A DNA stretch of 45,616 bases. Source: Syntrophobacteraceae bacterium. GTDB taxonomy: Bacteria; Desulfobacterota; Syntrophobacteria; Syntrophobacterales; Syntrophobacteraceae. Every line of letters begins with the position of its first letter. Position 1 is the first letter of the stretch. Of the stretch, positions 7,984 to 29,999 are shown in pieces. The translations under genes and the position numbers were made by a program. The stretch is taken from contig JARLHP010000120.1 in assembly GCA_031292195.1 (NCBI GenBank), positions 1 to 45,616 of the forward strand, read 5' to 3'. Under the pieces are notes generated by a model that did no database searches, was not told the DNA's origin, and saw only the letters and a list, made by a program, of their open reading frames with translations.

Positions 7984-8315
7984 TCGGCAATCCGTGACCG
8001 GAGATTAGCACTTTTTGGCTCTTAACGGCCTTACTTTCGGGCAGGCTTAGCCGTGGAGGATGCCCCCCTCGGGATGTTCTCCGGAGTGGTTGCATTCCGG
8101 GAGAAAACCCGTTAACGTGCCCGCTTTTGGCGCCGCGATTCTGTGTCGACGTGCAGGGAAATGATCGACTCATAAACAGGGTAGGGCGCCCAGCCGGGAA
8201 TCGGGCGCCTGCCTGATTAAACTCGGCTATATACCGGCGCAAGACCCGGGATATGCCATAATCTCGCCACCTCCCACACGGGGGAATCCAGGCCGCAAGC
8301 AAAGGATTGAAGCCA
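7984..8315. other. Divergent intergenic region between the putA operon and the histidine kinase
   Basis: About 330 bp separate the divergent KptA-like and histidine kinase genes. A 120-codon minus-strand frame spans 7940-8302, but it has no ribosome-binding site, an Arg/Pro/Ser-rich composition and no family resemblance, so I do not call it. I found no convincing plus-strand promoter for the kinase. Confidence 0.4.
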
Positions 8316-11300
8316 GTGCGCGTAAAAGGTTTTTCCGCCCCGTTGTCTATTCAGAAAAAGCTGTTGCTGCTACTATTGGTGGTCTGCCTTCCCTCAGGCT
8401 GGATCATCGTTCAGTCTAGCCTGGACCAGCGCGGACGTGGAATTCAGAGGGCTCAAAACAATGCCATGTCAATTGTTCAAAGTCTGGTCGCCCAGCAGGA
8501 GCAGATCGCCGCGGGGATAGAACAGACGCTTGGCATTCTGGCCCAGTTACCCGAGGTTCAAAAGTTGGACGCTCCAGCCTGCAATCGACTGTTTCGTAAC
8601 TTAAACCGGAAATACCCATTCTTTTCCATCCTGTCGGAGGTCACAGCCGATGGGAACCTGTTTGCCGCCTCGGGGCCGTTTGAGCCGGGCACCGTCAATG
8701 TTTGCGATCGGAAGAACTTTAGAGACGCCCTATCCACGCTCGATTTTTCCGCCGGAGAATTTGTAGTCGGTAGAACCAGTAAAGTGCAGTCCATTAATTT
8801 TGCCTATCCTGTTTTTGATTTGCAAAAGAAGCTGATCGGTGTGGTCAATGCCGGCTTTAGACTTGAAGAGTACCCTCTTTTCCTGAGCAGGGTCAGTCTG
8901 CCCGCGGGGGCTGCCGTTATCATAACCGATCATGCGGGAGTGCGGTTGTACAGTACCCCCGAGACTTCGGCCGCACCTCCAGGCAAACCGGTTCCGGTAG
9001 ATTTGTTTCGACGCGCAAAGAGGCTCGACCACGGAATATTCGAGAGGATCGGTCAGGATGGGATAAGTCGCATCTATGCTTTTCAACCGATGCGTCTGCG
9101 GAAAAATTCTCCCATTTATATGTATGTGTTTGCAAGTTTACCCAAGGACGAGATTTTCAAAAGAGCCAACCGGGAGATGGCCAGAAATCTGTTTTGCCTG
9201 GGGATTGCCTCTCTTATCGCAGCCTGCCTGGCATGGGGCTTTGGAAATTTCTTTTTCATACGGCCAATCACCCGTTTAGTCGATGCTACAAAACGATTTG
9301 GGGAAGGCGACCTTCTTGCCCGAACGGGCTTGCCGCATAACTCCGGTGAAATGGGCCTCCTGGCTGAATCCTTTGACCGCATGGCCTCACAGTGTGAGCA
9401 GCGTGACGCTGAACGGATGATGGCCGAAGAGGTGCTGCAGAAAAGCGAAAAAAAGTATCGCGAATTGTTCAAAGCAGAGTCTGATGCTTTGTTCCTGGTC
9501 GAGCGGGATACGCTGAAATTCCTGGATGTCAATCCGGCGGCTGAAAAAATGTATGGATACAGTCGTGCAGAATGGCTGACAATGCATTCCCCTGATATCT
9601 CCGCCGAGCGGGAAAAAACCACTCTAGCCATCTTCCAGGAGCATGAGAATGTTTCCGTTCGCATGCATCGCAGGAAGGACGGTTCAATTTTTCCTGTCGA
9701 AATAACGGGTACGTACTTTGCCATGGATGGGGTCCGCATTCATTTGGCGGCCGTACGCGACATCAGTATTCGAGTCCAGGCGGAGCAACGGTTAAGGGAA
9801 AGCGAGGAGCGTTTTCGAATTATCTTCGAACAGGCCGGGGGAGGCGTGGCACAGGTGGATGCACGCACCGGCCGCTTCGTTCGAGTCAATAAGAAGTTTT
9901 GCGATATCGTGGGTTACTCGCACGAGGAGCTGCTGACCCTGCGTTACCTGGACATCACACACCCCGATCATGTCCAGGCTGGTTCGGCCGTGGTCGAGCA
10001 GATTTTAGCCGGCAAAATCAGCAGTTGCACCCTGGAGAAGAAATACATCCACAAAAACGGTTCCACGGTTTGGGTCACTCTCTCCGTTTCCTCGATGCGC
10101 GGGGATGATCGGCAAGCGCCTTTCTACATCGCTGTCGCTCAGGATATCACCGAGCACAAGCAGGCTGAAGCGGCACTGAAGGAACGCGAAGAAATTTTTT
10201 CGAGCCTGGTCGGTCAGGCCATGGACGCGATTGCTCTTGTCGATGCCGATGGGAGATTTATCGAGTTCAATACCGCGGCCCATGAAGGACTGGGGTATAC
10301 CCGGGAAGAGTTCGCCGCACTTACTGTCCTGGATATTCAGGAGAGGCCTTCGGCCGAAAGCACGCGTCGGGAGCTTGAACAGGTTCGGGCCCAAGGCGGG
10401 CTGGTATTCGAGACAAGGCATCTCCATCGCAGCGGTGAAATCCGTGATGTGCGTCTGAGTCTCAAGCCCCTTACGATCAGAGGCAGCGAATTCCTGGCAA
10501 CCGTTTGGACCGACTTGACCGAGCGCCGGCGCATGGAGGAGTCTCTTCGCGGGAGCGAGGAAAAATACCGCAACATTATCCAGGCTGCCATGGATGGTTA
10601 TGTGCTGATGGACATGACGGGGCGGATCATCGGTGTTAACGAGAGCTACTGCCGGATGAGCGGTTATAGCGCCGATGAGCTTCTAAAAATGCACGCCTCT
10701 CAACTGGATGCCGATCGCTCGGCAGAGGAAATTGCCGCTCACGGCCGCTGGATGATGCAACACGGGGAGACCCGCTTTGAAGTGCGCCATCGCCGCAAAG
10801 ACGGCGCCGTTTATGATGTCGAAATAAGCATTCAACACCGGGCCGCCGACGGTGGCCGGCTGGTATGTTTCTTAAGGGATATCAGTGAGCGCAAGAAGGC
10901 GGAAAAAGCCGTCCGACGGCTCGAAACGGCCATTGAGCAGGCTGCGGAGGTAATCGTCATCACCGACTCAGAAGGAAACATAGAGTACGTAAATCCGGCC
11001 TTCGAACGTTTGACGGGCTATAGTCGTGACGAAGCTCTCGGGCAAAACCCCAGGGTTCTCAAAAGTGGTGAGCACGATGACCTGTTCTACCGGGAGCTTT
11101 GGCTGAACATATCGAACGGCGGTACATGGCGCGGACATCTGGTCAATAAAAGAAAGGACGGGTCTATATTTACGGAGGATGCCGCGATTTCTCCAGTCCT
11201 CGATAAAGCCGGGCGCATTGTCAACTATGTGGCGGCCAAACGCGATATTTCCGAAGAGGTCCGACTGCAGGGGCAATTGTTTCAGGCCCAAAAGATGGAA

Positions 11301-12413
11301 TCCGTCGGGCGTCTGGCGGGGGGAGTAGCCCACGATTTCAATAACATGCTCGCCGTAATTCTTGGCCATTCGGAATTGGCCCTCGAGGATGTCGATCCCG
11401 CGCATCCCGTTTACCCCGCCCTGGAAGAAATCCGGACGGCTGCCAACCGTTCGGCCGACCTGGTCCGCCAGTTGCTCACCTTTGCCAGAAAGCAGACGAT
11501 CGCTCCCAGAGTGCTTGACATCAACGAGGCCGTCGAGAGTATGCTCAAGATGGTTCGACGACTTATCGGCGAGAACATCGAACTGACCTGGCGCCCGGGA
11601 GCCGATGTCTGGCCCGTCAAGATGGACCCTACCCAGATCGATCAGATTCTAGCCAATTTGTGCGTTAACGCCCGCGATGCCATTGCCGATGTGGGAAAGA
11701 TAAGCATAGAAACCGGCAACCGGGTACTTGATGAGGACTTTTCCAGAGAACACCTGGAGGCCGTCCCGGGCGAGTATGTGCTCCTTTCGGTCCGGGACGA
11801 CGGGTGCGGTATAGGGCAGGAAAACCTGGGCAAACTCTTCGAGCCCTTTTTCACCACGAAAGAGGTCGGCAAGGGGACAGGGTTGGGCCTTGCGACAGTT
11901 TACGGCATTATCAGGCAAAACAACGGGGTCATGACCGTTGACAGTGAAGTGGGCAGGGGAGCGACTTTCAGGATTTATCTGCCGCGAACCGCGCCTTCCG
12001 AGGGCAGGCAACACACCTCTGAACCCCTGTCTCAGCCGCGGAGAGGAACCGAAACCATCCTGCTGGTGGAAGATGAAAAATCGATCCTGGCTATGGGCAG
12101 AAAGATACTTGAGCGCCATGGATACAGTGTGCTGGCTGCAAGCGGCCCGCGGGAGGCCCTGGAATTGGCCGGGAAGCATTCCGGGCGGATAGATTTGCTG
12201 ATAACCGATGTAATCATGCCCGGCATGAACGGGAAAGAATTGGCTGTAAAGTTGTCCGGACTTGTCCCGGGCTTCAAAACCCTGTTCATGTCGGGATACA
12301 CCGGAGATGCCCTTACGGAAAGCGCCATGGTGGACGAGGCAGTGAACTTTCTCCACAAACCCTTTTCCTTAACGACTCTAACAACAAAAGTCCGGGAGGT
12401 ATTGAGGAGTTGA
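8316..12413 (+). CDS. Hybrid sensor histidine kinase with five PAS domains and receiver
   Basis: A 1365-residue membrane-bound hybrid kinase. TM1 lies at about residues 14-32, followed by a periplasmic Cache-like sensor (about 35-280). TM2 is at about 285-310 and HAMP at about 310-365. Five PAS domains begin near 385, 505, 630, 755 and 875 (for example KMYGYSRAEW and YCRMSGYSADEL). Then come HisKA with phospho-acceptor His1006 in GGVAHDFNNML, HATPase_c (LANLCVNARDA, DDGCGIG, GTGLGLATVYG) and a C-terminal receiver with Asp1298 in LLITDVIMPG. The GTG at 8316 has AAGGA 9 nt upstream; a TTG at 8307 gives three more residues. No partner regulator is adjacent, so it is an orphan. The core is very like that of the second kinase at 23380-27255. 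Confidence 0.95.
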   Translation: MRVKGFSAPLSIQKKLLLLLLVVCLPSGWIIVQSSLDQRGRGIQRAQNNAMSIVQSLVAQQEQIAAGIEQTLGILAQLPEVQKLDAPACNRLFRNLNRKYPFFSILSEVTADGNLFAASGPFEPGTVNVCDRKNFRDALSTLDFSAGEFVVGRTSKVQSINFAYPVFDLQKKLIGVVNAGFRLEEYPLFLSRVSLPAGAAVIITDHAGVRLYSTPETSAAPPGKPVPVDLFRRAKRLDHGIFERIGQDGISRIYAFQPMRLRKNSPIYMYVFASLPKDEIFKRANREMARNLFCLGIASLIAACLAWGFGNFFFIRPITRLVDATKRFGEGDLLARTGLPHNSGEMGLLAESFDRMASQCEQRDAERMMAEEVLQKSEKKYRELFKAESDALFLVERDTLKFLDVNPAAEKMYGYSRAEWLTMHSPDISAEREKTTLAIFQEHENVSVRMHRRKDGSIFPVEITGTYFAMDGVRIHLAAVRDISIRVQAEQRLRESEERFRIIFEQAGGGVAQVDARTGRFVRVNKKFCDIVGYSHEELLTLRYLDITHPDHVQAGSAVVEQILAGKISSCTLEKKYIHKNGSTVWVTLSVSSMRGDDRQAPFYIAVAQDITEHKQAEAALKEREEIFSSLVGQAMDAIALVDADGRFIEFNTAAHEGLGYTREEFAALTVLDIQERPSAESTRRELEQVRAQGGLVFETRHLHRSGEIRDVRLSLKPLTIRGSEFLATVWTDLTERRRMEESLRGSEEKYRNIIQAAMDGYVLMDMTGRIIGVNESYCRMSGYSADELLKMHASQLDADRSAEEIAAHGRWMMQHGETRFEVRHRRKDGAVYDVEISIQHRAADGGRLVCFLRDISERKKAEKAVRRLETAIEQAAEVIVITDSEGNIEYVNPAFERLTGYSRDEALGQNPRVLKSGEHDDLFYRELWLNISNGGTWRGHLVNKRKDGSIFTEDAAISPVLDKAGRIVNYVAAKRDISEEVRLQGQLFQAQKMESVGRLAGGVAHDFNNMLAVILGHSELALEDVDPAHPVYPALEEIRTAANRSADLVRQLLTFARKQTIAPRVLDINEAVESMLKMVRRLIGENIELTWRPGADVWPVKMDPTQIDQILANLCVNARDAIADVGKISIETGNRVLDEDFSREHLEAVPGEYVLLSVRDDGCGIGQENLGKLFEPFFTTKEVGKGTGLGLATVYGIIRQNNGVMTVDSEVGRGATFRIYLPRTAPSEGRQHTSEPLSQPRRGTETILLVEDEKSILAMGRKILERHGYSVLAASGPREALELAGKHSGRIDLLITDVIMPGMNGKELAVKLSGLVPGFKTLFMSGYTGDALTESAMVDEAVNFLHKPFSLTTLTTKVREVLRS

Positions 12414-16901: not shown

Positions 16902-18707
16902 TCAATTCCTGCTTACCGCTTCGGTAGCCTTCATTTCCAAAAACTCCCAGCGGCGGTATGACTCATCGAGTTGCTCTTCGACGGATTTCAGCCTGGCCAG
17001 TTCACTCGCCGCCCCGGCGCCGTTTTTTCGGTAAAATTCCGGGTCGGACATGGAGCGGTAAAGCTCCTCCTTTTCCGCTTCCAGGGTTTCGATCGCTTCC
17101 GGCAGTGCTTCCAATTCCCGTTGTTCCTTGAAGCTGAGCCCCGGTTTGGGGGCGCGTTTCGGCCGCTGAGTCTCCGGTTTGACCGCGGGCCGGGCAGCCT
17201 CGGGCCGAACCTCCGGTTGCCGTTGGCGCACCCAGTCGTCGTAGCCGCCTACGTACTCCCCTACCCTCCCTTCGCCCTCCAGCGCCAGAGTACTGGTAAC
17301 CACATTGTTTATAAACGTCCGGTCGTGGCTTACCAGGAGCAGCGTGCCGGGGTAATCCAGAAGCAGATCTTCCAGAAGTTCGAGCGTTTCGAGATCCAGG
17401 TCGTTTGTCGGCTCATCGAGCACCAGCAGGTTGGAGGGCTGGGTGAACATGCACGCCAGCAAAAGCCGGTTGCGCTCGCCTCCGGAAAGCGATCTGACAG
17501 GGGTCCTGGCGCGTTCCGGGGAAAACAGGAAATCCCCCAGGTAACCGATTATGTGCTTGGGTTTGCCGTTGAACAGGATGGTGTCGTTTCCGCCCCCCAC
17601 ATTTTCGGCCACCGATTTGTTTTCATCCAGTTGGGCCCGCAGTTGATCGAAGTAGGCTATTTCCAGGTTCACGCCCAACCGCACCGTTCCCTTCGCCGGG
17701 GGAAGCTCTCCCAGAAGAACGCGCAGCAGGGTCGTTTTTCCCGAGCCGTTCGGGCCTATGATGCCGATCTTGTCGCCGCGCATAATCAGGGTCGAGAAGT
17801 CCTCGATAACGGGCTTTTTCTCGTAGCCGTAACTGAGCGCTTCGGCCTCGATCACCAGCTTGCCGGAGTTGCCCGCATCCTGGGTTTTCATCCGAACGGA
17901 GCCTATCAGCTCCCGGCGGGCCTGCCTTTCCGCGCGCATCTTTTCGAGTTCTCTTACCCGCCCCTCATTGCGTGTTCGTCTCGCCTTTATGCCCTTTCGA
18001 ATCCACGCTTCTTCGCGAGCCAGCTTATCGTCGAAGCGTTTGCGATGGCCGGCTTCGGCGGCAAGAACGGCCTGCTTGCGCAACTGGAAGGTCTCATAAT
18101 CGCACGACCAGTCTATGAGGCTTCCTCGATCCAGTTCAACGGTGCGCGTCGCCACTTTCTTGAGAAAGCTCCTGTCGTGGGTGACCAGGAGCAGTCCGCC
18201 CTCGAATCGACTCAAGAAATCTTCCATCCAGGCGATGGCGCCGATATCCAGGTGGTTGGTAGGTTCATCGAGCAACAGCACATCGGGTTCACTCACCAGG
18301 GTCCGTGCCAGCATTACCCTGCGTTTCATGCCCGCGGACAGATTTTCATACCGCTCCTTGCCATCGAGTTCCATGCGCGTGAGGGTTTTCTCCGCCTGAT
18401 TGGTCCGGCGCCAGCCCTCCACAACCGCCCCCTCCAAGCCCGCGGCCACTATCTCCGCTACGCTCCCCTGCCCCGCCTCCGGGATCTCCTGGGGCAGAAA
18501 AGAAACCCGAACCCCCTGCATGGTGGTAATCTCACCCTCGTCCGGAACAATGTCGCTGTTTAAAAGACGCATCAGTGTGGACTTGCCGGTCCCGTTTCGC
18601 CCCAGGAGACAAACTCGTTCCCCACGCTCCATATTGAAGTTTACGTGGTCGAGCAGCAAAGACCCCCCGAAGCCGATGCACACATCCCGCATACCTATCA
18701 GCGCCAT
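16902..18707 (-). CDS. uup: ABC-F family ATPase Uup
   Basis: A 601-residue soluble protein with two ABC ATPase domains in one chain and no membrane domain, the ABC-F layout. Domain 1 has Walker A GRNGTGKS and Walker B LLLDEPTNHLD. Domain 2 has GPNGSGKTT, the signature LSGGERNRLLLA and LVLDEPTNDLD. A charged linker joins them (about residues 230-300), and the last 80 residues form the coiled-coil typical of Uup. ABC-F proteins act on the ribosome; Uup also influences branched DNA intermediates and precise transposon excision. The ATG at 18707 is chosen over an upstream TTG at 18743, since the sequence matches the family from MALIGMRDV onward. It is divergent from the selenopeptide locus. Confidence 0.93.
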   Translation of the reverse strand: MALIGMRDVCIGFGGSLLLDHVNFNMERGERVCLLGRNGTGKSTLMRLLNSDIVPDEGEITTMQGVRVSFLPQEIPEAGQGSVAEIVAAGLEGAVVEGWRRTNQAEKTLTRMELDGKERYENLSAGMKRRVMLARTLVSEPDVLLLDEPTNHLDIGAIAWMEDFLSRFEGGLLLVTHDRSFLKKVATRTVELDRGSLIDWSCDYETFQLRKQAVLAAEAGHRKRFDDKLAREEAWIRKGIKARRTRNEGRVRELEKMRAERQARRELIGSVRMKTQDAGNSGKLVIEAEALSYGYEKKPVIEDFSTLIMRGDKIGIIGPNGSGKTTLLRVLLGELPPAKGTVRLGVNLEIAYFDQLRAQLDENKSVAENVGGGNDTILFNGKPKHIIGYLGDFLFSPERARTPVRSLSGGERNRLLLACMFTQPSNLLVLDEPTNDLDLETLELLEDLLLDYPGTLLLVSHDRTFINNVVTSTLALEGEGRVGEYVGGYDDWVRQRQPEVRPEAARPAVKPETQRPKRAPKPGLSFKEQRELEALPEAIETLEAEKEELYRSMSDPEFYRKNGAGAASELARLKSVEEQLDESYRRWEFLEMKATEAVSRN

Positions 18708-18888
18708 ACCGATCCCGTTTTCCTTCCCGGTTAAATTAATCAACTCTTCACGGCCTTAATGATAACCGGACGCCGGTCGAAAGTGGCCTATATATCATAA
18801 GCGGGAAATATTGTTTGGGCTTTGTGGGTGCTTCGTGTCCTTCTTGTCCTTCGTGCTCTCCGTGGATCCCGCCTTTTGCCCTTAGCCG

Positions 18889-18917
18889 TTGACACGCCCA
18901 GCCCACGGCAATATATT
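18889..18917 (+). promoter_or_regulatory. Sigma-70 promoter of the selenopeptide locus
   Basis: A perfect TTGACA (18889-18894), a 17-nt spacer and TATATT (18912-18917). The predicted start is near 18924, about 44 nt before the peptide ATG. Nothing else lies between, so this promoter serves the peptide gene and probably the maturase. Confidence 0.75.
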
Positions 18918-18967
18918 CCCTTGTCGGCGGATGGGGATGAAGTTCACTATCCCTGAGGAACAAAACT

Positions 18968-19225
18968 ATGGACATAATAGATGTGAAGAAGGTCCTGGCA
19001 GGATTATGCGTTGCCACTCTGGTGTCGGGCGCCGCGATTTCCATGGCGCAATCGCCGCGGGATGGCAACCTGATCCTGGCGAGCTGAAGCAGTTGAAGCG
19101 GAGCTAAAAAAGGCGCCGGGAGCGCCTTAAAACAAAAGAAAAAGAGTCCGAAAAAACCGGGAACGGCAGGGCCAAAAGAAAACCGGCCTGTTCCTCCGAG
19201 CAACGAGGGATCCAACAGAGGTTAA
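18968..19225 (+). CDS. sbtA: SbtA-type selenocysteine-containing RiPP precursor (two in-frame UGA)
   Basis: Read conventionally this is a 39-codon stub, so automatic callers miss it. Decoding UGA at 19085-19087 and 19094-19096 as selenocysteine gives 85 residues to a TAA at 19223. The leader has DVKKVLAGLCVATL (residues 5-18), two Lys before a hydrophobic stretch. The core is ASUSSUSGAKK, with Sec40 and Sec43 each flanked by Ser, followed by a Lys/Pro-rich tail. A GAGGAA RBS lies 7 nt before the ATG and a near-consensus promoter precedes it. A hairpin follows the second UGA, and the SbtM maturase starts 48 nt after the stop. From memory, this matches the family named SbtA thio(seleno)oxazole RiPP precursor. 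Two chance nonsense mutations would be the alternative, but the frame stays open for 42 codons after the second UGA. Confidence 0.85.
19110..19128 (+). promoter_or_regulatory. Candidate bacterial SECIS hairpin inside sbtA
   Basis: A 7-bp stem (AAGGCGC / GCGCCTT) closes a 5-nt loop CGGGA. It starts 13 nt after the second UGA, and its loop lies about 20-34 nt after the two UGAs. This is the position expected of a bacterial selenocysteine insertion element read by SelB, and the loop contains the GG typical of such elements. One hairpin may serve both codons. This is a fold by eye, not a computed or tested structure. Confidence 0.55.
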
Positions 19226-19273
19226 GAATCAGGTTGGCTGGATACCCCCCTCCGCCGATTCAAAGGACCCGAC

Positions 19274-20848
19274 ATGAACAGGGTTTTCAAAGCTTCAAAA
19301 GCGCACATGGGCCATGAGGCATGGGAAACCCTCCTTGCCCTGACCCCCTCGATTCCGGACTTTCCAGACCTGTTGGAACACCAAACCGAAGCTCTTGGCT
19401 TGCCCGCCTACCTGCCCGAACTTGCCCGTCTTGAGTGGACCGTGCACGAAGCGAAGGCTTCGGCCCGGCGAAGCCGTACCGCCCAACCCGAAAGCCGGAT
19501 AGCCGTAAATCCAACCCTGTCCATGCTCCGTTGCTCGTGGAAAGGCCTCCCTGCCCTTCTAAACTCAAAGGGCCGCCGGCCGGCGCCAAATCCGGAAAAA
19601 GGCGAGGAGTTGGTGCTCCTGTTTCGGCATCCGTCAGGCGGAAAATTGAGAGTTCTCTCCCCGCTGGCCGAAGACCTCCTGGTCCTCAAGATGACCGTTG
19701 AAAAAATCACGCCCGCAGAAGCCGCCGCCGAGGGCGGTGCATCGGTCCACGCCATCCAAGAGGCTATCGAACGGGTGATCGGAAAAGGACTTGTCCTTGC
19801 GCCGGCCTCCAAAATCCGGCGCGATCGCTCCGCGTTTTCAGCCGGCGCGCAAATAGATGACGTTTCGGCTTTTACCCTCCAGTGGCACATGACCCAAGCC
19901 TGCGACCTCCATTGCAGGCATTGCTACGACCGGGGCGATAGAGAGCCGATGGATTTACCGCGGGCGCTTTCTCTCCTGGACGATTTTGGCAGATTCTGTG
20001 AAGACCGTCACGTAAAGGGGCAGATATCCTTTACCGGGGGCAACCCTTTTCTCCATCCTCACTTCCCGGCTCTTTACCGGGCTGCCGCGGATCGGGGCTT
20101 CAACGCCGCGATCCTAGGGAATCCCACATCGGTTGAAAGACTCGAGGAACTGATCGCCATTCGCCGTCCGGAGTTTTTCCAGGTGAGCCTGGAGGGCCTG
20201 CCCGACCACAACGACTGGGTCCGCGGGCCGGGGCACTTCAGCCGGACTATGCGCTTTCTCGACCTGCTCCGCGAACTCGGCGTCTATTCCATGGTCATGC
20301 TGACCCTCACAAAGCATAACATTGCCCAGGTGCTTCCCCTTGCGGACAGGCTCGCGAACAAGGCCGACCTGTTCACTTTCAACCGCCTCTCTTTGATGGG
20401 GGAAGGCGCGAATCTCGAACTCCCCACAAAGGAAGAATACATAAAATTCTTACACCAATACAATGATGCCGCCTCCCATAATCCCATGCTGGGTCTTAAG
20501 GATAACCTGCTGAACACGGTTCGCTTCAAAGAAGGTTTGGATCTGTCCGGCGGCTGCTCCGGGTATGGCTGCGGGGCCGCTTTTAACTTCATGGCGGTCT
20601 TACCCGATGGCGAGGTCCATGCCTGCCGCAAATTTCACTCGCCCATCGGCAACCTGGTCCGCGACTCCATCTCGGCTGTCTACGACTCCGAAGCGGCCCA
20701 ACGCTACCGCGCCGGCTGCAGTGCCTGCGGCTTGTGTGCGATCAGACACGTCTGTGGAGGATGCCTTGCAACGGCCCGCAGCTTTGGACTGGACCCCTTT
20801 AAAGACAAAGACCCCTACTGTTTCATCGATTTGATCAGTCCAGATTGA
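19274..20848 (+). CDS. sbtM: Radical SAM/SPASM peptide maturase, SbtM type
   Basis: A 524-residue radical SAM enzyme. The [4Fe-4S]-SAM motif is C210-x3-C214-x2-C217 (TQACDLHCRHCYD). An N-terminal region of about 200 residues is without a clear motif and may bind the leader peptide. The C-terminal SPASM-like region carries clustered cysteines (SGGCSGYGCG at about 425-434, CSACGLCAIRHVCGGC at about 480-495, and a final PYC) for auxiliary Fe-S clusters. From memory it matches the family named thio(seleno)oxazole modification radical SAM maturase SbtM. It follows sbtA by 48 nt with AAAGGA 6 nt before its ATG, so the precursor and its enzyme form one unit. The chemistry at Sec40/Sec43 is inference. 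No transporter, protease or sel gene is adjacent. Confidence 0.9.
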   Translation: MNRVFKASKAHMGHEAWETLLALTPSIPDFPDLLEHQTEALGLPAYLPELARLEWTVHEAKASARRSRTAQPESRIAVNPTLSMLRCSWKGLPALLNSKGRRPAPNPEKGEELVLLFRHPSGGKLRVLSPLAEDLLVLKMTVEKITPAEAAAEGGASVHAIQEAIERVIGKGLVLAPASKIRRDRSAFSAGAQIDDVSAFTLQWHMTQACDLHCRHCYDRGDREPMDLPRALSLLDDFGRFCEDRHVKGQISFTGGNPFLHPHFPALYRAAADRGFNAAILGNPTSVERLEELIAIRRPEFFQVSLEGLPDHNDWVRGPGHFSRTMRFLDLLRELGVYSMVMLTLTKHNIAQVLPLADRLANKADLFTFNRLSLMGEGANLELPTKEEYIKFLHQYNDAASHNPMLGLKDNLLNTVRFKEGLDLSGGCSGYGCGAAFNFMAVLPDGEVHACRKFHSPIGNLVRDSISAVYDSEAAQRYRAGCSACGLCAIRHVCGGCLATARSFGLDPFKDKDPYCFIDLISPD

Positions 20849-20879
20849 ACCGAATGAAAAGAGATAAAAAGAGATAAAA

Positions 20880-20904
20880 GAGCGGGGAAGCGTCTGCCCC
20901 GCTC
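20880..20904 (+). terminator. Hairpin terminator after sbtM
   Basis: Arms GAGCGGGG and CCCCGCTC around a 9-nt loop, 31 nt after the sbtM stop. A C-rich run follows instead of T's. It is well placed to end the selenopeptide transcript. Confidence 0.55.
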
Positions 20905-20917
20905 CCCCCCCGGGATT

Positions 20918-20946
20918 CGTCCATACGCGCTGCGCGCGTGTGGACG
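20918..20946. terminator. Second hairpin between sbtM and hicB
   Basis: Arms CGTCCATACGCGC and GCGCGTGTGGACG (12 of 13 pairs) around a 3-nt loop. It lies between two convergent transcripts (sbtM and the hic pair) and may act as a bidirectional block, or be a repeat remnant. Confidence 0.45.
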
Positions 20947-20988
20947 AGCGCTCGGCGATTTCTGCGCCAGGCCGCCGACCGTCCCTTG

Positions 20989-21204
20989 TCACGCAGCATC
21001 CACGTTAACGTATTCGCTAACTGATGATGGCATTGGAACAGGTTCGCCGGCCCCTTTCAGCCCCTCTATATGCAGCTCGATCGCTTCTCTTATCAATCCG
21101 AGGACTTCCTCCCGACTTTGTCCGACGGCAATGCATCCCGGGAGATCCGGAACGTGAGCGCCATAGCTTGCCACACCCTTTTCAATGACCACCATATATT
21201 TCAT
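20989..21204 (-). CDS. hicB: HicB family antitoxin
   Basis: A 71-residue HicB-type antitoxin. It has the characteristic N-terminal partial RNase H-like fold: MKYMVVIEKG, then YGAHVPDLPGCIAVGQS and EEVLGLIREAIELHIE. It neutralises HicA, an mRNA-cleaving toxin, and usually represses the pair's promoter. It appears to lack a separate C-terminal DNA-binding domain (71 residues is a short HicB). RBS GGAGG lies 6 nt before the ATG at 21204. It is the downstream gene of the pair; its partner hicA, 13 nt upstream, has a nonsense codon. Confidence 0.85.
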   Translation of the reverse strand: MKYMVVIEKGVASYGAHVPDLPGCIAVGQSREEVLGLIREAIELHIEGLKGAGEPVPMPSSVSEYVNVDAA

Positions 21205-23379: not shown

Positions 23380-26300
23380 TCATCCATCAAGCGCCCCCCG
23401 GACTTTCTCAAGCAGGGTCTGTACGGAAAACGGTTTTTGCAAAAAGTCGATACTCTCATCAAGAATACCGTGATGGGCGATAACGTTGGCCGTGTACCCA
23501 GACATGAAGATGCTTTTGAACCCGGACTTTAATTCAGCGAGCCTATCTTTGAGGTCCTTTCCGTTCATTTCGGGCATTACCACATCGGTAAGAAGCAGAT
23601 GTATGGGACCGGGGTGACTCTGCGCTATTCCTAAAGCTTCAGTCGGACTGTTAGTTGCCAGGACCTCATAGCCGTGTCGCTGTAAAATAGTCTTACCCAG
23701 AGCCAGCAACGGTTCTTCGTCCTCCACCAGAAGCACGGTTTCCGTTCCTCGCAGGTCTATCCTCAACTTCACAGGAGGCTTCTCCGTGGTTTGCTCCTCG
23801 GCGCGGGGTAAATAGATTTTGAACGTCGTTCCTTGACCCGGTTCACTGTAAACATTGATAAAGCCGCTATTTTGCTTGACGATGCCATATACCGTCGCTA
23901 ATCCAAGCCCGGTCCCTTCACCCACACCTTTGGTGGTGTAGAAGGGTTCGAAGATATTGTCCATAGTCTCCTTGTTCATGCCACTGCCGTTGTCGCTTAC
24001 GGCAAGCATAACGAACTCGCCGGGCACAACCCCCGGATTCTGATAGCAATAGTCTTTGTCGAAGATGGTGGTCGCCGTTTCGATGCTGAGCTTGCCGTTA
24101 CCCGCGAGAGCGTCTCGGGCGTTCACGCACAAATTGGCAAGGATCTGGTCGATCTGGGATGGGTCTACTTTAACAGGCCACAGGTTATTGTCCGGCAGCC
24201 AGGCAAGGTCGATGTCCTCTCCGATCAGGCGCCGAAGCATCTTGAGCATTCCTTCAACAGTTTCATTTAAATCGAGAATTCTAGGGGATACTGTCTGCCT
24301 GCGGGCGAAAGCCAGCAACTGTCTGGTCAGGTCGGCGGATCGCAAGGCGGCCTTCCTGATTTCCGTCAAGTCCTCCCAAAGTGGGTTCGCCTGGTCAAGC
24401 TGCTCCATGGCCATCTCCGAATGGCCCAAAATTACACCCAGCATGTTGTTGAAATCATGAGCTACCCCACCCGCAAGCCTGCCAACAGATTCCATTTTCT
24501 GGGCTTGGCTGAACTGCGCCAAGAGTTGGAGATGCTCCTCCTCGGTACGTTTTTGCTCGGTTACATCCATGATGACGCCGTTTAGCTCTTTGGGCCTTCC
24601 TGTTTCGTCACGATGCAATTTGCCATGAGCTTTAATGTAATGAACGCTCCCGTCTTGCCAGATTGCGCGGTACTCGGTCTCATACGGGACATCCTCATTC
24701 AGCACTCGGTGCAAGGCTGCTCCGATTGTCTCGTGGTCATCCGGATGCACCACCCGGAAAAACTCTTTAGCCTCGCCGGAGAATGTTGCCTGATTTATCC
24801 CAAGAACATGACAGACCTGGTTATCGAAATATCGTTTATCCTCGTCAATGCTCCAGGACCACACGCCCATATTGGCTGATCGAATTGCAAGATCGAGCCG
24901 TTCTTCGCTATTCTTAAGAGCATCAAATGATTGGTTGTTCTGGAATGCAATTGAGCAGAGTTCGCCAAGAGCTGCTGTCATTCGAGCATCGTTTTCGTTG
25001 AATCCCTCCGGTTTATTGGCCAATCCGATAACACCCAGAGCCTTCCCATCAACAACTATTGGGGCAAACAACACACTTTCAAGGGGGACATGACCTTTGG
25101 GCATGAACTTCTGAAACCGGCTGACCGGAAATTCATTATTAAAAACCGGCTCGTCTTTGGTGTATGCTTCCTGGCGCAAACCCCTTATGGGCATCGGTAA
25201 GGCCGGATCTACGGTGCAACTCGACCCGCCTGCGTCCAAGAACAGCACTTCATTCTCCATGCCATCAGGGCTTAACAGTGCGACGTATCCGGACGTCGCA
25301 CCAACCAACTTTTTACAGACATCGAAAATTGCCCTGGCTGCCGGTTCAAAGCCTTTATAACGCATCACCGCTTGAGCTCCGTCCAGGAGAGCAGTCACTT
25401 CATTGCTGCGTCTCATAGCGTCGCGTAAAGCATTTTGCACCGCATCTTCCGCCTGCTTACGCTCAGTGATGTCACGGATATTACACTGGATGACTTTGGT
25501 GTGGTCAACCAGGTAGACATTGCTGACAAACTCCACGTCGATGTGCCGCCCATCAAGGGCTTCCAACGGCAAATCCTCGTAACGGATGTATTCGCTATCT
25601 TGCAGGACCTTGAAGGCTTCCTTGGATGTAGCAGTGTTTTTGAATGCACCTATTTCCCAAATATGTTTTCCGCATAATGCGTCGTAGGAATAACCGAGTA
25701 ACTGCGACAGGAACGGATTGACGTCAACCACCTTGCCCGTATCGAAATCGAGAATCAGTATGCCGTCCTTGGCCGATTCAAAAAGCCGTCGGTAACGCTT
25801 CTCGGAATCCTGGAGCACCTCCGCTGCCGCGCGTTCCACGCTCTGATCGCGGAACACCAGGACCACTCCGATAATAGTTTCGCCATCGACTCGGACTGGC
25901 GCGCCACTGTCGGCGATAGGGCGTTCTGTACCGTCTTTGGCGATGAGCAAGGTATGATTGGCCAGGCCCACCACAACGCCGTCCCTCAACACGCGCGCCA
26001 CGGGGTTCTCAACCTCCGCCCGCGTATGTTCGTTGACTATGCGAAAGATCTCCTCCAGCGGCCTGCCGCGAGCCTCCCTGTCGCTCCAACCTGTGAGCGT
26101 CTCGGCCACGGGGTTAAGCAGTTCCACCCGGCCTTGGGCATCGGTTGCGATTACGCCATCGCCAATGGCCTTCAAGGTGATGCTATGACGCTCCACGCTT
26201 TGGCGTAGCGCGAGCTCTGAGTGGTAAAGCTCCCGGTAGTGCTTCTTTTGCTCCCGTTGCCGGAAAACGATTCCGAAAGCAACCGCCAATCCGGTCAAAC

Positions 26301-27255
26301 CCATGAGCAGCGCCAGGATGAGGACCGACTGGAAGCGCCATGCAGCGAAAATCTCCGCCGAGTCCATCTTAGCCACCATGAACCAAGGCGAGTCAGGAAT
26401 GGGCATGAGAACCGAGACAACATCAACCCCGCGATAGTCCTTGCCCAACATAACGCCCTCATGGCCAAGCACGGCCATCACGGCGGGCACCTCGGCATGG
26501 CTTAGGGGAATGCGTAGTTTCAATGCCGTGGCGGCCCGATAACGCAGGTCGTTAAGGAAAAGCACGTCGTCGCCGTCACGCCGGACGAGCAAGGTTTCCG
26601 CAGTCTTTGCGGGTGTGGGCCAGGACTGGACAAGAGGATAGAGGTATTGAGAGGCGTTACAAACCATGATAACAGCGCCAACGGCTTTCCGGGCCGGCTT
26701 GTCACCGGTGAAAAGCGGTGCGATTACGGATAGGTGGGGTGTCGGCATTCGCACTTCACTGAGCAAATCGGTGAAACGGGGTTTGCCGTCGCGCAATGCG
26801 ACGGCGAGCGCTGATGCATATGCGCCGTCGACTTCGGTCTGTCCGCTCAGGTCCAGGAGTACTCGCCCGTCCGGGTCAACCAGCATTATGTTGGCGTAGC
26901 CGTAGTGCTTCGAAAGACTTTCGAACAGGGCGCGGATCTCCACGGCATCCTCGTCACGCGGGTCGGCCTGAAGGCGTGCAACTCCTCGGACAAAGCGAGG
27001 GTTTTCCATTAGCACGGCGGCATCTGCCAACCGATCTTCTCGCCACGCCGCTATTTGGTGCGCCTTGAGCCTCACGACAGCAGACAGATCAGTTTCCATC
27101 TCCTTCTGCAACGTTTGCTCCTGGATGCGGTAGAACCACCCGCCACCGAACATCAGGACCAGGAGCGTCAATGTTAAGGCAACTTTGATCCAACGGGACG
27201 ATATGTTCATGTGGATATTCCCCATCGCGTTTGAGGCCGTTCTGGCTGTTTCCAT
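23380..27255 (-). CDS. Hybrid sensor histidine kinase with Cache, PAS and GAF domains
   Basis: A 1291-residue membrane kinase. TM1 is at about residues 20-42, a periplasmic double-Cache-like sensor spans about 45-310 and TM2 lies at about 312-335. PAS domains begin near 355 and 480, a GAF domain spans about 620-780, and another PAS begins near 800. Then come HisKA with His933 in GGVAHDFNNML, HATPase_c (LANLCVNARDA, SDNGSGM, GTGLGLATVYG) and a receiver with Asp1224 in LLLTDVVMPE. The start is uncertain: the ATG at 27255 gives the longest form, while the ATG at 27210 has GGGGA 7 nt upstream. No cognate regulator is adjacent. The kinase core closely matches that of the kinase at 8316-12413, suggesting paralogues that differ mainly in sensing modules. 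Confidence 0.95.
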   Translation of the reverse strand: METARTASNAMGNIHMNISSRWIKVALTLTLLVLMFGGGWFYRIQEQTLQKEMETDLSAVVRLKAHQIAAWREDRLADAAVLMENPRFVRGVARLQADPRDEDAVEIRALFESLSKHYGYANIMLVDPDGRVLLDLSGQTEVDGAYASALAVALRDGKPRFTDLLSEVRMPTPHLSVIAPLFTGDKPARKAVGAVIMVCNASQYLYPLVQSWPTPAKTAETLLVRRDGDDVLFLNDLRYRAATALKLRIPLSHAEVPAVMAVLGHEGVMLGKDYRGVDVVSVLMPIPDSPWFMVAKMDSAEIFAAWRFQSVLILALLMGLTGLAVAFGIVFRQREQKKHYRELYHSELALRQSVERHSITLKAIGDGVIATDAQGRVELLNPVAETLTGWSDREARGRPLEEIFRIVNEHTRAEVENPVARVLRDGVVVGLANHTLLIAKDGTERPIADSGAPVRVDGETIIGVVLVFRDQSVERAAAEVLQDSEKRYRRLFESAKDGILILDFDTGKVVDVNPFLSQLLGYSYDALCGKHIWEIGAFKNTATSKEAFKVLQDSEYIRYEDLPLEALDGRHIDVEFVSNVYLVDHTKVIQCNIRDITERKQAEDAVQNALRDAMRRSNEVTALLDGAQAVMRYKGFEPAARAIFDVCKKLVGATSGYVALLSPDGMENEVLFLDAGGSSCTVDPALPMPIRGLRQEAYTKDEPVFNNEFPVSRFQKFMPKGHVPLESVLFAPIVVDGKALGVIGLANKPEGFNENDARMTAALGELCSIAFQNNQSFDALKNSEERLDLAIRSANMGVWSWSIDEDKRYFDNQVCHVLGINQATFSGEAKEFFRVVHPDDHETIGAALHRVLNEDVPYETEYRAIWQDGSVHYIKAHGKLHRDETGRPKELNGVIMDVTEQKRTEEEHLQLLAQFSQAQKMESVGRLAGGVAHDFNNMLGVILGHSEMAMEQLDQANPLWEDLTEIRKAALRSADLTRQLLAFARRQTVSPRILDLNETVEGMLKMLRRLIGEDIDLAWLPDNNLWPVKVDPSQIDQILANLCVNARDALAGNGKLSIETATTIFDKDYCYQNPGVVPGEFVMLAVSDNGSGMNKETMDNIFEPFYTTKGVGEGTGLGLATVYGIVKQNSGFINVYSEPGQGTTFKIYLPRAEEQTTEKPPVKLRIDLRGTETVLLVEDEEPLLALGKTILQRHGYEVLATNSPTEALGIAQSHPGPIHLLLTDVVMPEMNGKDLKDRLAELKSGFKSIFMSGYTANVIAHHGILDESIDFLQKPFSVQTLLEKVRGALDG

Positions 27256-29267: not shown

Positions 29268-29999
29268 TCACTGTTCCACGCCTTGTCCGAGCCGCACCTC
29301 CACGCCCAACTTACTCAGCCGCTTCTCCGCAGCCTCGGAAATTTCCTCCGAAAAGGTTCCCAACACGCGATCGCCCATGTCAACCAATACAATCCGTGCT
29401 GAGGTGGGATCAATCCGTCGGAAATCGGATCGAAGCGTTGTGCGGACCATTAGCGCGATCTCGCCGGCTAATTCAACGCCGGTCGGACCAGCCCCCACAA
29501 GCACGAATGTCAGAAGATCACGGTGGCGGCTTGGGTCTTCTTCGGCCTCGGCTTGCTCGAACCCTTGTAAAATCTTGTTCCGTACAGCGACAGCATCCGC
29601 GAGGCCTTTCAGACCCGGCGCGAACTTTTCAAATTCGTCGTGTCCAAAATAGCTGTGGCGCACACCCGTTGCCAAAATCAGATAATCGTACGGCAGCGGC
29701 ACTTCTTCTCGATCTGCGGAGTTTGCGAAAACACACCGCCGATCTTTGTCTACACCCGTGACTTCTGCCAAAATTACGGTGATATTCTTTTGATTCCGCA
29801 AAATCCCGCGGATCGGTGAAGCAATGTGTCCCGGTGTGAGCACAGAGGTCGCGACTTGATATAGTAGAGGTTGAAATAAGTGATGATTGGTGCGGTCAAT
29901 GAGAGTTATGTGAGCCGGCGTGTGTCTGAACGCTTTTGCCGCTGCCAACCCGCCGAAACCTCCCCCGACAATCACGATACGTGGAATGCTTTCGTCCAT
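29268..29999 (-). pseudogene. Type II NADH dehydrogenase (NDH-2), 3'-truncated
   Basis: A 243-codon frame with the N-terminal half of a type II NADH:quinone oxidoreductase. It has the FAD Rossmann motif IVIVGGGFGGLAAAKA (residues 7-22), HHLFQPLLYQVA, LILATGVRHSYFG and the second dinucleotide motif FVLVGAGPTGVELAGE. Family members are about 400-450 residues. Here homology stops near LSKLGVEVRLGQGV, where the sequence joins the CoA-transferase tail. The missing part includes the C-terminal membrane-anchoring region, so a working enzyme is unlikely. The start at 29999 (ATG) is normal for the family. Confidence 0.8.

Follow-up and report, generated by a model that had tools for sequence, protein, structure and literature searches.

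The stretch analysed here, which we call the window, comprises 45,616 nucleotides (nt) of contig JARLHP010000120.1 from a Syntrophobacteraceae bacterium (GCA_031292195.1), and it holds a short precursor gene, sbtA, followed on the same strand by the gene of a radical SAM/SPASM maturase, sbtM (Table 1). Our study assigns this pair to the SbtA/SbtM family of ribosomally synthesized and post-translationally modified peptides (RiPPs): the two in-frame UGA codons of sbtA are predicted to encode selenocysteine (Sec), and the maturase would likely turn both residues into selenooxazole rings. We give this reading, which is drawn from sequence comparisons, a probability of about 0.9. Selenium-containing ribosomal natural products are rare. 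The locus joins a family that is already known and whose chemistry, the conversion of Sec or Cys to a seleno- or thiooxazole, was published in 2021; what is uncommon here is the doublet of UGA codons.

Table 1. Features of the sbtA/sbtM locus (positions are those of the window).
Feature	Position	Strand	Remarks
Sigma-70-type promoter-like site, TTGACA-17-TATATT	18889..18917	+	consensus match only, 11/12 bases
Ribosome-binding-site-like GAGGAA	18955..18960	+	read from sequence, 7 nt 5' of ATG
sbtA precursor gene	18968..19225	+	85 codons and TAA (19223-19225), two in-frame UGA codons; TIGR04081 match
Leader, residues 1-28	18968..19051	+	signal-peptide-like by pattern reading: K7-K8, hydrophobic stretch, A-x-A-like end
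UGA codon 40, predicted Sec	19085..19087	+	hairpin loop starts 29 nt downstream
UGA codon 43, predicted Sec	19094..19096	+	hairpin loop starts 20 nt downstream, the family's commonest distance
SECIS-type hairpin, AAGGCGC-CGGGA-GCGCCTT	19110..19128	+	encodes the G-A-G-S motif; pairing seen family-wide
sbtM, 524-residue radical SAM/SPASM maturase	19274..20848	+	TIGR04082 match; ATG 48 nt past the sbtA TAA

The precursor gene and its relatives

Translation of the sbtA frame showed that it is open apart from UGA40 and UGA43, and the standard code yields only a 39-codon stub from it, as the original prediction had stated. The promoter-like and ribosome-binding-site-like sequences, as well as the spacing between the frame and the maturase gene, were likewise found as it had described them; a scan of positions 18500-21100 on both strands gave two promoter-like sites in all, compared with 0.8 +/- 0.9 in shuffled sequences. 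The UGA codons lie in the context A-S-U-S-S-U-S-G, so that the symmetry claimed for it extends over SUSSUS and stops there, with A38 and G45 as unequal flanks. The precursor matches TIGR04081, the NCBIfam model of SbtA precursors, with 38.9 bits over residues 1-26 (curated cut-off 30.5), and in a genome-wide search this was the sole match in the window's genome at E <= 0.001, with 39.8 bits. The maturase matches TIGR04082, the SbtM model, with 693.7 bits against a curated cut-off of 350. These two profile searches uphold the proposed family and the proposed maturase partner. Past the leader the peptide ends in a tail rich in Lys and Pro.

To find related loci, 26 SbtM proteins were aligned and the alignment was run against genome contigs, and the best 80 of 287 were kept; because these are the most similar ones, the counts below are not representative of the whole family, and the related genomes are not independent of each other (L068 and L071 belong to a single assembly). 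With an iterated leader profile, SbtA-type precursors whose Sec or Cys stands in a similar context were identified at 69 of the 80 SbtM loci. Since the leader also exceeds the curated SbtA cut-off, the sbtA frame is more than a product of chance. Our comparison set consists of 76 precursors from 71 loci, namely the 69 together with the window and L024, whereas L022, a copy of the window, was excluded. When compared with this set, the window's SbtA carries its Sec codons after the leader in the S/A/G-U-S/G context of the family, and 190 of the 195 in-frame UGAs in the 76 precursors are preceded by a codon for G, S or A. A search at the 11 precursor-less loci and at L021 and L023 returned nothing convincing; in three of the 11 (L057, L109 and L110) the upstream sequence extends for about 400 nt at most. 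Five loci (L075, L076, L091, L095 and L119) have two precursor genes per SbtM, one with a lipobox-type and one with an A-x-A-type leader. No relative was found among the 46 pattern matches in viral contigs.

A family-wide hairpin downstream of the UGA codons

The original prediction did not include the hairpin, of the type of a selenocysteine insertion sequence (SECIS), that follows both UGA codons. According to the published rule for bacterial SECIS elements, the loop lies 16-37 nt from the UGA in most of them and has G in its first two positions (PMC13188914). The loop of the window's hairpin, CGGGA, fits this rule, and so do both of its distances. Compared with Rfam at gathering thresholds, the window gave no match.

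Throughout the comparison set, a hairpin loop is found 16-25 nt 3' of 151 of the 195 in-frame UGAs, most often at 20 nt (n = 67), although some of the 195 are likely to be ordinary stops or to be located beyond the actual end of the peptide; the same test on TGAs sampled at random from the 80 loci was positive in 182 of 3200 cases. We then considered hairpins anchored by their codons (GA[GVTM] after U), which gave 71 sites, 66 of them distinct, including five of the 71 in which the motif stands 0 or 3 nt from the UGA. In the 66 distinct hairpins, 314 of 330 pairing cells hold a standard pair, compared with 292.8 in shuffles (standard deviation 2.2, maximum 300, n = 1000; relatedness was not corrected for), and sliding the partner strand by 1-3 positions lowers the count to 99-213. 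The co-variation is found mostly in one stem pair (T-A 44, C-G 11, A-T 7), and the other four pairs are nearly constant. Because of this pairing, the GAG[GS] motif conserved in the peptides of the family is, on the comparative evidence, the translation of hairpins such as GGTGC-AGGTG-GCACC, and its conservation would at least partly be an RNA signal rather than a peptide signal. In 50 of 68 precursors the loop belonging to the last hairpin-backed UGA lies at or past an in-frame TAA or TAG, and therefore a peptide constraint cannot account for the hairpin there. In five Nitrospirota loci (L072, L085, L091, L095 and L119), the precursors have earlier UGAs in the same context for which no clear hairpin was found by the rule applied here; a hairpin does follow the last UGA of each precursor other than the first of the two in L119. 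By eye, a KGDA-type motif follows some of these early UGAs.

The selenocysteine machinery of the genome agrees with this reading of the UGA codons. The assembly of the window (5.5 Mb, 94.9% complete) contains selA (626 bits), selB (368 bits), selD (386 bits) and tRNA-Sec (74 bits), all above their cut-offs, and by its gene content the organism can make selenocysteine. Together with the family hairpins, this gene set sustains, at the level of sequence, the Sec assignment of the original prediction. Neither a lack of selB/selC in the genome, nor stops scattered over the homologous peptides, nor an enzyme of an unrelated family was found, each of which it had named as telling against itself. The selD gene of this genome (G000:C272:19072-19995, L018) has an in-frame TGA, and therefore SelD itself is probably a selenoprotein.

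The distribution of selA was also compared between Sec-type and Cys-type loci. Reading by eye, we identified six tested genomes with Cys-only core precursors (L053, L060, L080, L088, L121 and L130); L053 was counted among them with its single UGA, which has no hairpin, taken as a plain stop. The selA gene is missing from five of these six and from two of the 60 genomes with hairpin-backed UGAs (Fisher p = 1.4e-5). It is important to note that the 78 genomes searched for selA are mostly drafts, so that an absence may be a gap, and that the comparison leaves out L089, L071, L100, which has a single UGA without a hairpin, and the 11 precursor-less loci, two of whose genomes have no selA.

Two UGA codons over one hairpin

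UGA40 and UGA43 begin nine nucleotides apart and share a single hairpin, which SelB would use for both. Two other loci, L087 (SSUSSUSAKQGAGG) and L054 (TAUNGUAGKKGAGG), also have UGAs three residues apart over a single hairpin, each with distances of 26 and 17 nt, and wider doublets occur in L124 and L051, with 35 nt for the first UGA. Furthermore, the best hairpin for the lone last UGAs of L077, L089, L099 and L111 is found at 30-32 nt. Because doublets recur and these lone UGAs have such distances, 29 nt is within the reach of the family.

A different explanation would accept only UGA43 as a natural Sec codon and regard UGA40 as a sequencing error or as a codon for Ser, Cys or Trp that mutated recently, so that this copy would be either an ordinary SbtA with one Sec or a dead gene. 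UGA43 does combine the canonical distance with the G-A-G-S motif, UGA40 lacks a separate hairpin, the draft genome is divided into 311 contigs, and none of the copies in genomes of this genus or family shows the doublet. However, U-x-x-U over one hairpin and its wider forms recur in the four loci named above, UGA40 stands in the family context S-U-S, and its distance falls in the published range and near that of the four lone UGAs; we consequently regard an error or mutation at UGA40 as improbable. Doublets like that of the window would test whether one bacterial SECIS serves two UGAs.

Another arrangement is seen in nine precursors (L054, L065, L073, L078, L086, L090, L103, L105 and L116), where a further UGA follows the Sec UGA two codons later, near the end of the peptide, so that the loop lies 18-20 nt from the first and 12-14 nt from the second. 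In these the first UGA seems to be Sec and the second is probably a stop, and how far a UGA lies from the hairpin may distinguish a Sec codon from a stop UGA that follows two codons on.

The maturase SbtM

The cysteines of the radical SAM motif CX3CX2C (C210, C214 and C217) are invariant in 26 aligned SbtM sequences, as are eight more in the C-terminal part of the protein (positions 428, 433, 451, 485, 488, 494, 497 and 516), a pattern compatible with the presence of two auxiliary clusters in this SPASM part. Both PF04055 and PF13186 exceed their cut-offs. A structure model of the whole protein, with a mean predicted local distance difference test (pLDDT) score of 84.3, has a fold that matches the RiPP maturases SuiB, SkfB and ChlB and the structure 5wgg, which we take to be CteB. 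Residues 83-171 of this model follow the order strand-strand-strand-helix-helix-helix, with an extra short helix at 92-97, and this secondary-structure order alone suggests a possible N-terminal leader-binding domain resembling the RiPP recognition element; modelled alone, the domain was poor (pLDDT 39.7), and structural matches barely cover it. Among the protein matches listed (120 of 3087), the named organisms belong to Syntrophobacteraceae, Desulfobacteraceae and Thermodesulfobacteriota.

The original prediction had regarded the product as undescribed, which did not hold. In the 2021 study of Lewis et al., SbtM removed four hydrogens in vitro from substrates with Cys as well as from those with Sec, and a thiooxazole was obtained from the Cys substrate (PMC11002830). 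In addition, the table of a 2026 review already lists TIGR04081 as a selenopeptide with two Sec and the motif SGUG, and states that 2-3 Sec are found in a small subset of families (PMC13188914). SbtM of the window would bind the conserved leader and remove four hydrogens from each Ser-Sec unit.

Observations that weigh against the assignment

Several results tell against the reading of the window as a locus whose two UGAs are both Sec codons. At 29 nt, UGA40 is beyond the 16-25 nt usual in the family, and at the family level the hairpin is missing at 25 of the 195 UGAs, nearer (12-14 nt) at 9 and farther (26-35 nt) at 10, UGA40 included. The window's hairpin alone is no stabler than shuffled sequences (z = -0.80; 38 of 200 shuffles as good), and it overlaps, or can itself be read as, a terminator-like site of the minus strand. 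The C-terminal Sec of many relatives is missing from the window's tail. The selA comparison has exceptions in both directions, since one Cys-only genome has the gene and two Sec-type genomes do not.

Conservation among close relatives also counts against it. Among 55 genomes of the class, SbtM exceeds its cut-off in four, and TIGR04081 matches in two, the window's genome and G031. A genome of the same genus (G041; L133, 2016-3008) retains only residues ~183-518 of SbtM, lacking the N-terminal ~180 residues even though the gene lies inside a 100-kb contig, and no precursor was found in the 9 kb read around it. In a genome of the same family that consists of one contig (G049; L021, L134), SbtM is whole and has the top score of the class (794.7 bits), with no precursor in the 12 kb read and no TIGR04081 match genome-wide. 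In G031 (L135, 2576-4146), a TIGR04081 precursor without the doublet adjoins an SbtM split over three frames, which is either a draft error or a decayed gene. Given these counts and states, the SbtA/SbtM pair is patchy among the relatives of the window.

The terminator-like hairpin, together with the stub produced by standard gene finding, could be taken to mean that both UGAs are true stops, that the stub of 39 residues is simply a small secreted peptide, and that the downstream codons are non-coding. We consider this extremely improbable, as the codons past the UGAs agree with those of the family (SGxKxGAGS), Cys is found at equivalent places in relatives, the hairpin pairs family-wide and the genome has the full set of Sec genes. 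If the UGAs are read as Sec, as we favour, the locus illustrates how standard gene calls cut such selenopeptides to stubs.

Leader, neighbourhood and possible function

The leaders of the family carry a further signal. After K7-K8 and the hydrophobic stretch, 48 of the 76 precursors have a lipobox-like Cys at positions 24-30, directly following G, A, S or N, and in 40 of these it is exactly at position 29; these counts come from a pattern match rather than from SignalP, and an alternative pattern counts 49. The remaining 28, among them the precursor of the window, have a loose A-x-A-like pattern; the window's leader ends in SMAQS, with no Cys at 24-30. Because of the lipobox-like Cys in these 48 leaders, the patterns suggest that SbtA-family peptides are exported and often lipid-anchored. 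The literature searched, in which most subscription papers were not covered, contains no statement that SbtA is lipidated. The leader is also conserved at L6, K7, L10, A11, G12, A16 and L18, and since this exceeds what is expected of a signal peptide alone, SbtM may read the leader as well.

The genes flanking the pair are an ABC-F-type ATPase gene, which lies on the opposite strand, and that of a large sensor kinase, at a distance of 2.5 kb on the downstream side. We clustered the neighbouring frames of at least 80 residues from the 80 loci and the window (81 sources), naming the clusters by eye and using Pfam for the window's own frames only. SbtM is present in 76 of the 81 sources, and the next clusters are sensor kinases (19), GGDEF proteins (13), nuclease genes of one lineage (8) and ABC ATPases (7), the last of which includes the window's ABC-F-type gene. 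Conserved neighbours were accordingly dropped as a clue to function, as the larger clusters look like common kinases or the synteny of one lineage and the offsets are otherwise scattered. By eye, no exporter or transporter, peptidase, immunity or regulator gene common across lineages was recognised in the 81 sources. Pfam gave no match to an enzyme of the multinuclear non-haem iron-dependent oxidative (MNIO; DUF692) type in SbtM or in the 24 frames of the window that were scanned.

Two other observations were made in the window. Very large multi-PAS hybrid histidine kinases are encoded on both sides of the locus, at 8307-12413 (+) and 23380-27255 (-). At 29268-29999 (-), a frame resembling an NAD(P)H dehydrogenase (Pyr_redox_2) ends early at a TGA and, continuing downstream to about 29040, runs into an end that by eye resembles the C-terminus of a CoA-transferase; it looks like a deletion junction or a decayed chimera.

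Regarding export, the modified peptide would leave the cell by the general secretory (Sec) route, because the leader resembles a signal peptide and no exporter or peptidase gene was recognised as common to the relatives. Once exported, the seleno- and thiooxazoles might bind a soft metal such as Cu(I), a speculative step proposed by analogy with an MNIO-made thiooxazole peptide that binds this ion (PMC12538549). A metallophore role of SbtA peptides is thus a tentative suggestion, which we hold to be somewhat more doubtful than an even chance. We would place at a similar level the broader proposal that SbtA peptides could be exported, mostly lipid-anchored selenooxazole metallophores, a selenium and radical-SAM counterpart of bufferins and DAG-RiPPs, and that the hairpin of the window decodes both UGAs to give a neighbouring pair of selenooxazoles.

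RiPPs made by radical SAM enzymes are often antimicrobial. The peptide could accordingly be a secreted antimicrobial instead of a metal binder of the envelope, an idea that competes only with the speculative metal-binding step and that agrees with the name Selenobacteriocin given to the family in the review table (PMC13188914). We judge it unlikely, in view of the lipobox-like Cys that follows a signal-peptide-like leader in most of the compared precursors, of the neighbour clusters, where no exporter, peptidase or immunity gene was recognised as common across lineages, and of the Cu(I) binding mentioned above. Lipobox-like leaders would shift the family from presumed bacteriocins to envelope peptides.

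Comparison with known systems

With the SbtA/SbtM system described by TIGR04081 and TIGR04082, the window shares the leader, a Sec/Cys core in the S-U-S/G context and an adjacent radical SAM/SPASM maturase, with both cut-offs passed. It differs in having two Sec three residues apart over one hairpin, a Lys/Pro-rich tail and no C-terminal Sec, and, unlike 48 of the 76 compared precursors, it has no lipobox Cys.

Bufferins, oxazolins and their relatives resemble the SbtA family in the oxidation of Cys to a 5-thiooxazole or an isomer of it, in the signal peptide of the Sec secretory type, which bufferin precursors carry (PMC12452194), and in repeated modified Cys units (PMC12452194, PMC12538549). 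The two differ in their means, as bufferins and oxazolins use a multinuclear non-haem iron enzyme with a partner protein acting on Cys (PMC12452194, PMC12538549), whereas the locus of the window has a radical SAM enzyme and predicted Sec. RiPP-lipoprotein hybrids, the DAG-RiPPs, have been demonstrated among MNIO products, and autoinducing peptides are predicted to form them too (PMC12636315); the available text of that paper makes no mention of SbtM, selen-, radical SAM, rSAM or Lewis. Their lipobox-type Cys between leader and modified core (PMC12636315) has a counterpart in the 48 SbtA precursors, in which lipidation would be a prediction from the leader pattern; the window's copy lacks this Cys.

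Finally, the SbtA family shares with bacterial SECIS-dependent selenoproteins a UGA followed by a small hairpin at 16-37 nt with G in the first two loop positions. It differs from them in having as many as four hairpin-backed UGAs within a single short peptide (L118 and L129), in the two UGAs that the window places over one hairpin, and in the nine relatives that use UGA as Sec and then probably as a stop.

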